A DNA stretch of 45,134 nt. It comes from Bacteroidota bacterium (GTDB taxonomy: Bacteria; Bacteroidota; Bacteroidia; Palsa-948). The stretch lies in assembly GCA_016195025.1 (NCBI GenBank), contig JACQAL010000014.1, positions 1-45,134 of the forward strand, in the 5' to 3' direction. Both the position numbers and the translations under genes were made by a program. The first letter of the stretch is position 1. The number at the start of each line of letters is the position of its first letter. Positions 4,551-28,086 of the stretch are shown here, piece after piece. The notes under the pieces were generated by a model. That model ran no database searches. It saw nothing but the letters and a program-made list of their open reading frames with translations, and was not told the origin of the DNA.

Positions 4551-6098
4551 TTATTCTTTCGATTTCTCCTCCACAATCTGCCTGAAATACCGATTCTCCG
4601 CCTTGCTCTGCGCCCATGAAACGAAATCGAAAAACTCAAACACAGGCTGTTCAAGAGGATCTTTTTCAAGTGACTTTAAGTCATTGTATAAGGAGCGGTA
4701 TTGTTCAGCCAAAACTTTTTTCTGTTTCTCTTTCATCAGCCGTTCCACGAATTTCAAAAACACATTTTCGAATTTATACGCACGCTCGCGATGTTTGAGA
4801 TAGCGGTGCGTAGCGCGGTAGGTATAGGGAATGAGCGATTCATTTTTAAGTTCGATGTGGACAATGAGATTAAAAATTTTAGTGAAGCAGTGAATGTCCT
4901 GGTGCTGTTCGATGGATTTATCGTTGAGGATTTTGTTGTTCCAGCGAAGCGCTTGAGAAAACTTTTCAGAGCCGAAACACGCCACGGCAATGCTCGAATA
5001 AAAATATGCTTCGCGGAGTTTGTTGATTTTACTTGAGTATTTATCCAATCCGTCCTCGATGACAGGAATTAGTTCCATTGATTTTTCAAAATCACCGAGC
5101 GTATTATATAAGGTAATCTCGATGCTGAAAGTGGAAGAGAAAAGTTTTATCTCCATGTCCTTGTTCTTGCGGATGTCGAACGTGTGAGGCACTTCACGAA
5201 GTTTTTTCAAGTAGAAAAATGCTTCCTCAAATTTTTTTAATTGGCTGGAGATATAAATGATGTTAGTGAGCACAGAGAAATAAATATTCGGCTCTTCTTC
5301 AAAAATGTGTTTGGAATTCTCAATGAGTTCTACGTTTTTCTTCAGATGCTCGTAACTTTTTTTGTAATCACCGATTCCAAAATAATATGCCATGTAGATA
5401 TGGTGGTAGAGATATTTTGTTTCGGTGGAAAGCGCTTCCGATTCTGTTTTGAGTAGCGTGTTGTCAATTATTTTTTTGAATTGCCGAAGTTCATCTATTG
5501 TTCTTGCTTTGCCCTGCTTGTATAAAATCATAAAGAGGTGGCTCTTGATGTTCCAATAGTCATTGAAGTTTTTTATTTTCTCTCCTATGAGTTTGTCTTC
5601 TTCAAGAAATTTATTTATGTGTTTTTCTGTTTTGCCAGAGTAGTTGTCTTTCTCAATTAATTTCTTTTCCCAGAGATAAATATCAAGCAAGGCAGAATAC
5701 TTTTCATACTTCACAGCGATTTTTTTTGCACTTGATAAAACTTTCGCGCATTGGTCGTACAGCGATTTTTTGCAAAGAATTTCTGCGTAATGGATTTCGC
5801 GTTTCAGTTCCGCATCAATGGAAGAGCCGGCATGATAAATATCCAATGAACGAAGAATGGATTCATACAATCTTGCTTTAGCTATACTGAATTTCTTGAT
5901 GAACTTTTCTTTTTTGAATTTCTCCAAAACTTTTGCCTCATCATATTCTTTATGATTTGCAATGGCATCAAACAGTTTCACATAATTGGTGTCGTTCGCA
6001 TCGTAATGGCGGGAGGAAAAGATTTTGAAATACCGGATCTCCGCTGGTAAGAGCGACCAAATCAGTTTATGCAAATCATCGGAAGCAGTTCTGGACAT
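4551..6098 (-). CDS. Large helical protein of unknown function (TPR-like)
   Basis: This 515-aa protein is not one I recognise by name. It has no signal peptide and no membrane segment, so it is probably cytosolic. The sequence is almost entirely helical and charged, with repeated pairs of helices rich in Tyr, Phe, Leu and Lys (for example KSYEHLKKNVELIENSKHIFEEEPNIYFSVLTN, given here as adjoining helices), which suggests a solenoid of tetratricopeptide type. The N-terminus contains the block SRTASDDLHKLIWSL. It reads toward the suf operon but has its own position upstream of the suf promoter, so it is probably a separate transcription unit. No catalytic motif is visible; a scaffold or interaction role is inference only. 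Confidence 0.8.
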   Translation of the reverse strand: MSRTASDDLHKLIWSLLPAEIRYFKIFSSRHYDANDTNYVKLFDAIANHKEYDEAKVLEKFKKEKFIKKFSIAKARLYESILRSLDIYHAGSSIDAELKREIHYAEILCKKSLYDQCAKVLSSAKKIAVKYEKYSALLDIYLWEKKLIEKDNYSGKTEKHINKFLEEDKLIGEKIKNFNDYWNIKSHLFMILYKQGKARTIDELRQFKKIIDNTLLKTESEALSTETKYLYHHIYMAYYFGIGDYKKSYEHLKKNVELIENSKHIFEEEPNIYFSVLTNIIYISSQLKKFEEAFFYLKKLREVPHTFDIRKNKDMEIKLFSSTFSIEITLYNTLGDFEKSMELIPVIEDGLDKYSSKINKLREAYFYSSIAVACFGSEKFSQALRWNNKILNDKSIEQHQDIHCFTKIFNLIVHIELKNESLIPYTYRATHRYLKHRERAYKFENVFLKFVERLMKEKQKKVLAEQYRSLYNDLKSLEKDPLEQPVFEFFDFVSWAQSKAENRYFRQIVEEKSKE

Positions 6099-24814: not shown

Positions 24815-24905
24815 GTACGCGCTCCGATGCATCGGAGTGCGGGAGTCCCGATTTTATCGGTCCGAAGGACTCTCGGAGGAGTCCCATCGGACTCCTTCGG
24901 AGGAT
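24815..24905. repeat. Nested palindromes after the protease-like gene
   Basis: CTCCGATGCATCGGAG (24822-24837) is a perfect 16-bp palindrome. TCCGAAGGA (24861-24869) pairs with TCCTTCGGA (24893-24901), with further GGAGTCC/GGACTCC pairing between. CGTACGCGC at the left edge is shared with 24167 and 25957. A terminator function for the protease gene is possible. Confidence 0.7.
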
Positions 24906-24907
24906 AC

Positions 24908-25185
24908 AGAGCCATAAAAAAATATAAAACCTCCCGTTTACTTGCAGGGAGAAGAAGCAGTGCGTTTTCGTTTATCGCGATTTCATTTAACGAGTAAGAC
25001 ATTGCTGCTTTACATACAACAAAACGCTTGTCAAACACTACTGATTTACTGGAAGTTAAAAAATGTTAAATAGGACGAATGCCCGTAATTCTCCTATGAG
25101 TTTTATGTTTTCTCCTATGAAGTTTCAGTTTTTATAGAGGAGGGGAATGAAAAAATAATTTCAGCGGAATAAAATTTTGAAAATA
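24908..25185. other. Gene-free stretch with a short 21-bp spaced doublet
   Basis: No convincing gene is present. TTCTCCTATGA occurs at 25089-25099 and again at 25110-25120, exactly 21 bp apart, the same spacing as in the arrays further right. The rest is AT-rich without a pattern I can name. Confidence 0.4.
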
Positions 25186-25240
25186 ATTTTGGGAGATTCC
25201 TCATTTCTCCACCTATGGCGGATTCATTCGGAATGACATT
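25186..25240. repeat. Palindromic element, inverted half copy
   Basis: GGGAGATTCCTC to TTCGGAATGACA matches the right arm of the family seen at 13684-13776. Together with 25330-25365 it forms an outward-facing inverted pair around about 90 bp. Confidence 0.7.
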
Positions 25241-25329
25241 TTTTGATTGATAAGGCGGGTGCGGACATTGGATTTTTTCTTTTTACAAAAATTTGCTTGT
25301 CCGCGCCAATTTTACTCTCTGATTTTAAC

Positions 25330-25365
25330 CTGTCATTCCGAGCCGGGCGAGGAATCTCATTTTTG
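25330..25365. repeat. Palindromic element, forward half copy
   Basis: CCTGTCATTCCGAGCCGGGC plus GAGGAATCTC matches the left arm of the family, in the orientation opposite to the copy at 25186-25240. Confidence 0.7.
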
Positions 25366-25413
25366 TTTCAGGTGAGCATAAAAAAATTCAGAAGTTTTTC
25401 CTTCGTTTTAGCT

Positions 25414-25772
25414 ATGACAAATCAGCATTTCGTTTTCGTAGTGATTTTAAAGCATCCTGACAAAAACGGATACATCTTTCCTAAAAACGTTAATGATTTG
25501 TTACAAGACGTTTACATTTTGACGCAGGACGTTAAGATAAAGTGACAAGACGTTAATGTTTTTTAGCGGGACGTTAAGATAAAGTGACAAGACGTTAAGA
25601 TAAAGTGACAAGATGATATCATCCCGTCACAAATTGTAACGATAAAGTGACAAGATGATATCATCCCGTCACAAATTGTAACGATAAAGTGACAAGATGA
25701 TATCATCCCGTCACAAATTGTAACGATAAAGTGAAAGATTGTTTACGTTTTTTCCAAATGACAGAAATGTTG
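25414..25772. repeat. 21-bp periodic array 1 (about 17 units)
   Basis: Units of 21 bp can be set out from about 25457 to 25772, with weaker ones from 25414 and a one-base slip near 25457. A common unit reads GTGACAAGACG then TTAAGATAAA. From 25605 to 25730 a dimer (GTGACAAGATG/ATATCATCCC and GTCACAAATTG/TAACGATAAA, 42 bp) is repeated three times almost without change. Column 18 is T in all 12 units from 25500 to 25751, and a palindrome GATGATATCATC occurs in the dimers. The array belongs to the same family as array 2. Confidence 0.9.
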
Positions 25773-25794
25773 AAATTTGTGGCGGGCAAAAAAT

Positions 25795-25953
25795 TTACTG
25801 TATCACAATCTTTTTCTCGTAAATGGCATCGTTGCTGGTGGCAACAACCGTGTAAATTCCGGGTAATAATTTTTGCTGGGGGTCAATAGCAATCACTTCT
25901 TTGTCATTGTAGATGATAGCGACTTTGGAATAGCATTCTCTTCCGAGAAAATC
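25795..25953 (-). pseudogene. Remnant of a T9SS C-terminal sorting domain
   Basis: On the minus strand a frame without its own start reads DFLGRECYSKVAIIYN to LLPGIYTVVATSND to YEKKIVIQ and a stop. This is the final 50 residues of a T9SS type A sorting domain (DxLGR, LPxGxYxV, KKIVIQ). The 5' side is cut at a CGTACGCGC repeat (25955-25978), so the body of the gene is gone. It lies between the two 21-bp arrays. Confidence 0.75.
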
Positions 25954-26065
25954 CCCCGTACGCGCCCGTACGCGCTAAGCTAGGAAAGTTCTCTCAAAAA
26001 ACCACAAATTTCAAGGCAAAAAGAAATTTTTCAGAAATTAATGCGATTTTAATCTAAAACTCAAA

Positions 26066-26443
26066 GTGACGAAATCATATGGTTTAGTGAAGAAACCATC
26101 TGATTTAGTGACGGAACCTACTCATTCCTTCACTAAACGTACTGTTCCGGTAATCAAATGTTATTATTTAGTCGCTTTTTCATGTGGTTTCGTGAAGAAA
26201 CGTTTTCTTTCGTTGAAGAAAAGGCGCGGTTGAATAAGCGAACCGTATCATTCATTCTCTCAACCAAATCATGTAGCAACAAAATCAAATCTTTTGTTAA
26301 AGAAAAGAATTGATTGCATGAAGGAATGCAGTGATTTGTTTGCCTTAACATATCATTTCACCTGAGAAACATTTCTTCCTGTTAAGAAAACATGCGGTTG
26401 CCTTAGCGAAACAGATATTCTTATTGCTTTATGCCATCTTCCT
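26066..26443. repeat. 21-bp periodic array 2 (18 degenerate units without indels)
   Basis: Eighteen consecutive 21-bp units from 26066 keep perfect register. The general unit is GTgAaGAAA (columns 1-9), then YCATaT (10-15), then gaTTT and a variable base (16-21). By my count column 18 is T in 18 of 18 units, column 9 A in 17, column 15 T in 16, column 2 T in 16 and column 8 A in 15, while the rest varies strongly. Columns 6-21 form an imperfect palindrome (GAAAYCATATGRTTTC). AAA and TTT columns lie about 10.5 bp apart, one helical turn. The array ends about 35 bp before the glycosyltransferase start. In-frame stops on both strands argue against coding. Confidence 0.92.
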
Positions 26444-26478
26444 GGAGGCAATAATTTCCTTACTTTTATTTTTTTTAC

Positions 26479-28086
26479 ATGAAACAACTGCGTTTGTTTT
26501 TTACTGACCGCAATACTAAATACGGTGTTATTTTTATTCTGCTCTTTCTGTTGCTGTGCGGAATTTACCAGTATCATTTAATTCTTTTTTTTCGCCCGCA
26601 GGGGTTTCATCAGTGGAGGCAGACGATTGGGCTGTCCATTGCCTTGAATTATTATTCTAACGGCATGAACTTTTTTCTGCCGGAAGTTAATCATCTTTTA
26701 GCAGACGGAGGCAAAACAGGATATGCAGTTGCCGAATGCCCGCTGCTGTATTATTTATATGCGGTGTTATGGAAGATTTTTGGCGTTCGTGAATTTATTC
26801 CGCGCCTCATAAGTTTGCTGCTTGTCTTCGGAGGTTTATTTTCAGTTTATAAAATTGCGGCAAAGCGGCTCGGCATTTTTTGGAGCATGCTGCTGCCCTT
26901 ATTCATTTTTACTTCTCCCGTTGCCGCGTATTACAGCATCAGTTTTCTTCCCGATAGTTCTGCCTTCGGAATTGCGCTCATAAGTTTATATTGCTTTGAC
27001 CGCTTCAGGTCAACGCAGGAAAACAAATGGATGTATTTATTTTTTGCTTTATCGCTGCTTGCGGGACTTTTGAAAACCACTTCTGCCATGTTCTTCGCGG
27101 CTGTGTTTGTGGTTTTTCTGCTCGAGAAAACAAAAATAGTTTCGTTTGATAAAAAAATATTTAAAGGCGGCTACAAGGAATTTATTTTATTCTTTGTTGC
27201 GCTGGCAGGAATTGCTTCGTGGTATTTATGGGCAGCGCATTACAATGAAATTCATGATGCCCATATTTCTGATAGCCGGATTCTTCCTATATGGAGTTTA
27301 ACCAAAGACGAAATACTTACTGTTATTCGCGATGTATATGAAATTAACTGGTACCAGTTTTTTTGCCCGCAAACTTCTTTTCTTTTTATTTTTCTCACAG
27401 CAGGAATATTTTTTCTTAAAAAGAATTCAGATTCTTTTTTATGGCTCCTTTCTCTCTTGCTGGTTGTGGGCGCAATTATTTACATCCTTCTCTGGTTTGC
27501 CGTTTGGGGAAGGCACGATTACTACATGTTCCCGCTGTTTCTTTCGCTGATAGTGCCGCTGATAACTTTTTGGGATTACCTGAAAAAAAATTTTCCATCT
27601 CTGCATGAATCCAGGGCATTAAAGATTCTTGTTTTCATTTTTTGGGGATATAATGTATGGTATTGCAGCAATAATGTGCGCCTGCGAAACGGAATTGGCG
27701 CGGGAGAGTTGGTTTTAACTTCCACTAATTTGGAAAAAGGATTCTGGGATTGGTATTCATGGGACCACAACACGAGAAGAAAAGCATACGAAACAATTGA
27801 ATCGTATAACAGGGAAATCGGCATAATGCAGAATGATTTGGTGATTTCATTGCCCGATGAAAGCGTATGCATAACCCTTTACCTGATGAATCAGCGGGGA
27901 TGGAATGAATACGGGGATTTCCGTTTTGAAAACCCAGGAATAAAAAACAAAATTGATTTGGGAGCGAAATACTTATTTGTTGGCGATTCTACGTTGCTGA
28001 CTCATCCGAACATTCAGCCCTTCACACAGCATAAAATAGGGCAGTATGAAAATATTTCTGTTTATGATTTGAGGGCGTATAAATGA
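26479..28086 (+). CDS. GT-C type membrane glycosyltransferase (family 39-like)
   Basis: This 535-aa polytopic membrane protein has about 10-12 hydrophobic segments, the first at residues 15-35. The first large extracytoplasmic loop carries GFHQWRQTIGLSIALNYYS and PEVNHLLADGGKTGYAVAECP, in the place where GT39/PMT-like enzymes hold acidic catalytic residues. The C-terminal 130 residues are soluble. Such enzymes move sugars from polyprenyl-phosphate donors onto lipids, glycans or proteins on the outer side of the inner membrane. It is convergent with two further GT-C genes, which points to a surface-glycan locus. Donor and acceptor cannot be read from the sequence. Confidence 0.75.
   Translation: MKQLRLFFTDRNTKYGVIFILLFLLLCGIYQYHLILFFRPQGFHQWRQTIGLSIALNYYSNGMNFFLPEVNHLLADGGKTGYAVAECPLLYYLYAVLWKIFGVREFIPRLISLLLVFGGLFSVYKIAAKRLGIFWSMLLPLFIFTSPVAAYYSISFLPDSSAFGIALISLYCFDRFRSTQENKWMYLFFALSLLAGLLKTTSAMFFAAVFVVFLLEKTKIVSFDKKIFKGGYKEFILFFVALAGIASWYLWAAHYNEIHDAHISDSRILPIWSLTKDEILTVIRDVYEINWYQFFCPQTSFLFIFLTAGIFFLKKNSDSFLWLLSLLLVVGAIIYILLWFAVWGRHDYYMFPLFLSLIVPLITFWDYLKKNFPSLHESRALKILVFIFWGYNVWYCSNNVRLRNGIGAGELVLTSTNLEKGFWDWYSWDHNTRRKAYETIESYNREIGIMQNDLVISLPDESVCITLYLMNQRGWNEYGDFRFENPGIKNKIDLGAKYLFVGDSTLLTHPNIQPFTQHKIGQYENISVYDLRAYK

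Follow-up and report, generated by a model that had tools for sequence, protein, structure and literature searches.

Two blocks of 21-bp direct repeats lie close together ahead of a glycosyltransferase gene in a Bacteroidota contig, and they raise the question of what such arrays are, whether they belong to a wider family of loci, and which function could hold them in phase. The two blocks, here termed array A and array B, were analyzed in the window, i.e., the whole stretch of 45,134 nucleotides, and were compared with related loci in the same genome and in other genomes. The starting point was a sequence-only reading of the window, which had described both blocks and proposed that they represent a family of loci.

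Arrays A and B in the Window

The features of the window, together with the related loci discussed below, are listed in Table 1.

Table 1. Positions of arrays, repeats, and neighboring genes in the window and at related loci.
Feature	Location	Strand	Remarks
Spacer before array A	24930..25483	.	Recurs together with array A at C21
Array A	25484..25751	.	12-13 phase-locked 21-bp units, self-reverse-complementary consensus
42-bp higher-order units inside array A	25605..25730	.	~3 nearly perfect copies
Stretch separating arrays A and B	25770..26014	.	Bounded by 13-bp inverted repeat
Array B	26066..26464	.	19 degenerate 21-bp units, no phase jump
PMT_2-type glycosyltransferase gene	26479..28086	+	Begins 15 bp past array B
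Second-family neighbors of control-region arrays	L169, L200, L202, L203, L210
Diverged family-I relative beside control-region array	L207
CarboxypepD_reg-domain protein beside control-region array	L208
~110 bp dispersed repeat	L050 5705-5816, L056 6827-6938, L058 6466-6576, L062 6847-6957, L098 2669-2777, L100 2542-2650

Array A was found where it had been proposed, with its ends trimmed. The phase-locked part covers 25484-25751, positions 25414-25483 contribute little, and the array extends to 25766 if one phase jump is permitted. The unit given in the sequence-only reading, GTGACAAGACGTTAAGATAAA, is matched exactly at 25584-25604. Column 18 is T in 12 of 12 units between 25500 and 25751, as had been reported, and A at column 9, described earlier as present in most units, was counted in 8 of 12. 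In array B, the corresponding values were 19/19 units for T18, 16/19 for A8, and 17/19 for A9, and the one-base offset between the registers of the two arrays was likewise reproduced.

Chance had been considered an unlikely origin of the periodicity, and this was borne out by shuffling. Column identity at 21 bp reached 0.467 for array A and 0.442 for array B, compared to a maximum of 0.313 among 300 shuffles with the best of 16 periods taken.

Two properties had been overlooked. The consensus sequences of A and B are both self-reverse-complementary, with the strongest dyad symmetry (0.86) in array B. The 42-bp units within array A are nearly perfect (99% matches by TRF), and each of them holds the 26-bp imperfect palindrome GTGACAAGATGATATCATCCCGTCAC.

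The glycosyltransferase gene adjoining array B lies outside the array-linked protein families described below, and its homologue in genome G006 (46% identity) is without an array. Array B is best read as an orphan array ahead of this gene.

Several other repeats were noted in the vicinity. A perfect 13-bp inverted repeat (25770-25782 and 26002-26014) bounds 245 bp between A and B, and a dispersed 29-bp repeat, CTGTCATTCCGAGC...GAGGAATCTC, lies at 25331-25359 and occurs on many contigs of the genome. A 76-bp repeat rich in inverted sequence is shared, with 96% identity, by positions 24842-24917 of the window and ~4997-5072 of locus L033, where it disrupts the beginning of a small ORF while apparently keeping the frame.

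Likeness Between Arrays

The profiles of A and B had been proposed to be related, and their similarity exceeded that of column-permuted controls (0.55 versus a mean of 0.30, p = 0.0025), so that the condition named beforehand as refuting the proposal did not apply. The step from two blocks to a family of loci proved correct in kind and understated, the class comprising dozens of loci in this genome; the part that did not stand is that these form one sequence family. The profile of array A is nearest to arrays on contigs C21 (0.92), C4 (0.77), and C62 (0.68), and the best match of array B (0.65) is locus L124 in another genome, but most array pairs are similar only at the level of chance. Arrays A and B share a format, not a sequence. 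Common to the arrays are the period, the dyad symmetry, the length, and the linkage to genes, while the unit sequence is private to each locus.

A count of further arrays in the genome, which had been suggested as a check, gave about 20 arrays per Mb, even in control DNA taken away from family-I genes, the genome-wide number being an extrapolation from such stretches of an assembly of 79 contigs. Several arrays sit at contig ends, and arrays probably break assemblies. At the end of C4 (L030 3568-3808) and the start of C62 (L031 1-265), pieces of a type-A array with 90% identity were observed together with insertion-sequence ends, and the C4 end opens an ORF which, judged by eye, resembles the start of an IS30-type transposase. 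Because of these insertion-sequence ends and the IS30-like ORF start, a mobile element may have inserted into the array at this point.

Linkage of Arrays to Family-I Genes

A second copy of the locus pointed to a partner gene. Window positions 24930-25742, comprising the spacer and array A, recur on the reverse strand at C21:64031-64856 with 80% identity, and there the array copy lies upstream of a 207-aa ORF that is absent from the window. The C21 ORF gave no Pfam or NCBIfam match, and tblastn found 15 further paralogues in the genome. A profile built from the resulting 16 sequences, termed family I, gave 28 matches in the genome, including a few fragments. No family-I gene was detectable in the window. 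Since the sister locus at C21 retains its gene, array A appears, by sequence comparison, to be what is left of a module that has lost its gene.

When the neighborhoods of the family-I genes were scanned with periods from 15 to 30, nearly all contained a period-21 array, with a different unit sequence in each. Linkage was evaluated for 56 untruncated family-I loci, drawn from this genome, its genus, and other Bacteroidota, against control windows of 3.6 kb. A locus, i.e., the gene with up to 1.5 kb on each side, was counted as positive if its best period was 21 with a score of at least 0.45. Arrays were present at 47 of the 56 loci and in 14 of 220 control windows (12/151 in this genome, 2/69 in four other genomes), giving a Fisher p value of 3e-31, which treats non-independent paralogues as independent and was obtained with a detector and threshold chosen on the first loci. 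The control counts still include two matches inside ORFs (L159 and L209) that were discounted on visual inspection.

Among the nine misses, L129 and L127 gave a top period other than 21, the latter carrying a 31-unit 21-bp array in addition to another repeat. At L129 (3816-4278), which belongs to the GC-rich genome G058, the array beside the family gene has a period of 22 instead of 21.

Among 395 genomes drawn from the phylum, six besides the present one matched most of the family-I profile (loci L226-L231). The top period was 21 at all six fetched loci, including one in a single-contig genome; these loci are counted within the set of 56 and are no separate sample, and a second match in G308 lies outside the count. 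The class of 21-bp arrays recurs across the phylum Bacteroidota. The genomes are mostly MAGs, and the relatives include the Bacteroidota MAGs palsa_966 and NC_groundwater_1592. No array was detectable at L153 and L154, two remote relatives in Methylococcales MAGs (24-27% identity).

PADLOC gave only stray matches to defense systems, in single members. At six family-I loci, the array or gene has a dispersed repeat of ~110 bp with 95-100% identity no more than a few hundred bases away (Table 1).

Other Array-Linked Genes and Partner Proteins

Linkage was not confined to family I. In a second protein family, 15 of 19 loci, 14 of them outside this genome, were accompanied by 21-bp arrays, and the two families co-occur among genomes (p = 2e-4). 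Many control-region arrays in this genome adjoin other small-protein genes, including those in Table 1, although L200, L202, and L203 were picked for fetching since they carry second-family genes. Other arrays adjoin long secreted-type ORFs or contig ends.

The partner proteins have 200-300 aa and are mostly basic, with a median pI of 9.4. Family-I members consist of a helical N-terminal domain and an Fn3 beta-sandwich; in the AlphaFold model of L134 (pLDDT 88), a four-helix N-terminal domain is followed by the Fn3 domain. The helical domain alone (pLDDT 94) gave no significant Foldseek match. VIA-align related it to four-helix domains of FAT and p130Cas (Z of 8.9 at most) and to a DGR accessory protein (Z 6.4), matches that were set aside as falling within the range of common bundles. 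No DNA-binding fold was recognized in the partner proteins, and the Fn3 domain is generic.

Anatomy of the Arrays

The arrays had a median of 13.75 units and an interquartile range of ~12-15. Dyad symmetry reached p < 0.05 in 37 of 54 arrays. In degenerate arrays, phase was retained at ~40% divergence, with 0.9 phase jumps per 100 substitutions, a value that phase-locked detection biases toward few indels, though 210 bp of flank were searched on each side. Array B has accumulated 161 substitutions and not a single phase jump. In neutral bacterial DNA, indels would be expected to be several times more frequent. Column conservation in old arrays was more uneven than binomial expectation, 3.2-fold in the case of array B.

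Phased A-tract bending was ruled out, the A/T content being without a 10.5-bp harmonic. Coding heptad repeats were ruled out for arrays A and B, as none of the six frames is open through either. Across the 54 arrays, 1.31 of 6 frames were open on average compared to 0.99 after column permutation, and 17 arrays had none open, so that a few arrays could be coding.

Inheritance and Promoters

The array occurs on either side of the gene according to clade, and its side changed only 3 times on the protein tree, compared to 17.9 times when shuffled. As the side varies by clade, the array is not simply a promoter operator. The Bacteroidota -7 box was present in the gap to the upstream array in 1 of 28 genes versus 111 of 331 long ORFs (p = 4e-4), the gaps being variable in length and on average slightly shorter than the 200-bp control stretches.

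Array sequence turns over faster than the gene. Similarity of arrays correlated weakly with similarity of proteins overall (Mantel r 0.16, p 0.0005) and was mostly at chance below ~70-75% protein identity; even proteins that are 70-80% identical may carry arrays alike only at chance level. The nine closest paralogue pairs showed dS of 0.32-0.95 and dN/dS of ~0.2-0.3, a sequence signature that points to purifying selection on the family-I ORFs.

Among close paralogues, homology extends over the ORF and falls to near chance straight before the ATG in most pairs and past the stop codon in several. Two exceptions were observed. The pair L033/L054 retains ~100 bp past the stop, and L097/L098 share an 80-bp leader before the ATG that is identical at 79 of 80 positions, whereas their ORFs are only 80% identical, a pattern resembling that left after a recent exchange.

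Proposed Explanation and Alternatives

The array is tentatively explained, with not far from an even chance of being right, as the cis half of a Bacteroidota module of which the adjoining ORF is the other half, the array forming a DNA platform read by a dimer. Arrays A and B would be two members of the class without a gene. What was directly observed is that the arrays pair with a gene, hold to one period, carry dyads, and keep to a fixed side. The platform is supported by the linkage to both gene families, the significant dyads, the retained phase, the uneven column conservation, the side kept on the protein tree, the mostly basic partner proteins, and the purifying selection on their ORFs. 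Because 21 bp corresponds to two helical turns, every unit would present the same dyad on the same face of the DNA. A dimeric protein, which presumably reads the array with a two-turn stride, would then bind in neighboring positions over ~10-20 units, coating the locus or drawing it into clusters. The sequence could drift while period and dyad persist, leaving each module with a DNA address of its own. Once coated, the array would regulate the adjoining ORF, in whose gap to the array a standard promoter is lacking, or insulate it, and would travel with it.

It is possible that the product of the adjoining gene is itself the array reader. Such reading of its own array by the partner is awkward, because proteins of 70-80% identity have arrays with chance-level likeness. 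Also counting against the proposal are the arrays that occur without any family gene and the lack of a recognized DNA-binding fold in the partner.

A smaller but appreciable probability was assigned to the array being the end that an ORF cassette uses for recombination or mobility, recognized, like attC, by its shape and not its sequence, with the small gene as cargo. This would account for the patchy number of modules in the genus (28, 12, 11, 11, 0, 0, and 0 family-I matches per genome), for paralogue homology that in most cases ends at the ATG, and frequently at the stop codon, at dS 0.3-0.8, and for the two congeners (L106 and L124) with different modules adjoining the same ABC-2 permease gene. 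The near absence of standard promoters from the gap would likewise suit a cassette. However, no linked recombinase was seen, counts of RAYT and reverse transcriptase do not track the modules, and no relatives were found in phage, plasmid, and viral collections. Single-copy loci in distant genomes retain the array, and its 10-20 dyads far exceed the need of a recombination site.

A further reading, considered rather improbable, is that of a system which dictates spacing and symmetry while leaving the sequence free; the module itself would build or maintain a new 21-bp phased dyad array from flanking DNA, as a private address read by its own helical/Fn3 protein.

It is quite unlikely that the array acts as RNA, with hairpins repeated along a transcribed leader or trailer that stabilizes mRNA or binds protein. 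Single strands do fold more favorably than after column permutation (mean z -2.1), and a promoter situated upstream of the array would suit the promoterless gap. On the gene-sense strand, however, there was no excess of G.T over A.C (-0.012 +/- 0.024 for upstream and +0.05 +/- 0.03 for downstream arrays), and within-unit covariation was little (mean z -1.2), being present in a minority of arrays and not in array B. Hairpins, moreover, need no exact 21-bp period. The lack of G.T bias and the little covariation favor recognition of duplex DNA over RNA hairpins.

Neutral minisatellites arising by slippage or unequal exchange, with incidental gene linkage, would explain why units are private and homogenized to differing degrees among arrays, why outer units are more diverged, and why arrays probably break assemblies, but this reading is strongly disfavored by the gene linkage, by the dyads, by phase kept at high divergence with uneven column conservation, by the almost exclusive period of 21 in ~650 kb of control DNA from the same genome (with a few others of 18, 27, 30, and 34), and by the return of period 21 in distant genomes.

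Novelty and Meaning

Bacterial repeats are usually classed by a common sequence, whereas here it is period, symmetry, length, and gene neighborhood that persist across a phylum. With unit sequences that differ from locus to locus, the class is invisible to sequence searches. In the open-access full text searched, no account of 21-bp arrays with private sequences and linked genes was found.

If the partner proteins read the arrays, the result would be DNA-protein pairs in large number, each private; should the arrays be mobility ends, they would represent a new cassette system. On either reading, an unannotated protein family acquires a testable DNA partner.

Comparison with Known Systems

A CRISPR array was ruled out, as the units follow one another head to tail without spacers. 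REP/BIME elements are short intergenic palindromic repeats of alternating orientation whose sequence is common genome-wide. The present arrays are likewise short, intergenic, and palindromic in their repeats, but differ from REP/RAYT systems in having units private to each locus. RAYT was rejected as the maker of the arrays, Y1_Tnp matches numbering 0 in G001, which has 12 family-I matches, and 8 in G003, which has none. An origin from DGRs or retroelements was rejected as well, there being no RVT_1 match in G000.

An integron attC consists of a single folded site of 55-150 bp that is invariably located 3' of its ORF, in rows of cassettes beside an integrase. Integron cassettes resemble the modules in their small promoter-poor ORFs, their private site, and the preservation of structure rather than sequence. 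By description, the arrays are set apart from attC by their 10-20 phased units, by their position on either side of the gene, and by their dispersed loci.

Plasmid iterons and centromere-like arrays are direct repeats of ~20 bp, or two turns, bound cooperatively by an adjacently encoded protein. Like iterons, the arrays have direct repeats spaced by whole helical turns (21-bp phase), and they carry dyads. Plasmid iteron systems have one conserved iteron sequence and a recognized Rep or Par protein; here, in contrast, units are private and the partner shows an Fn3 match and an unmatched helical bundle, with no known DNA-binding fold.

PARCEL elements are coding repeats of 25 residues (75 bp) within ORFs (Roske et al. 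2010, PMC2996958). They are comparable in forming tandem arrays with DNA dyad symmetry that are dispersed and variable in sequence, and they differ from arrays A and B, which have a period of 21 and no open frame.

The BrickBuilt minisatellite-MITE of Porphyromonas gingivalis has a period of 23 and a shared consensus (Klein et al. 2015, PMC4596501); it possesses a leader and a tail with inverted-repeat ends, and no partner gene family was described for it (PMC4596501). Both systems occur in Bacteroidia, with numerous intergenic arrays at scattered sites, in which direct repeats of ~20 bp follow one another without spacers and dyads or stem loops are predicted. As regards the terminal inverted repeats of BrickBuilt, the 13-bp inverted repeat in the window, to which this comparison is limited, lies between A and B and not around an array. 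The period in A, B, and nearly all related arrays is 21 instead of 23, and in place of a consensus shared across the genome, the arrays described here have private unit sequences and a fixed gene partner.
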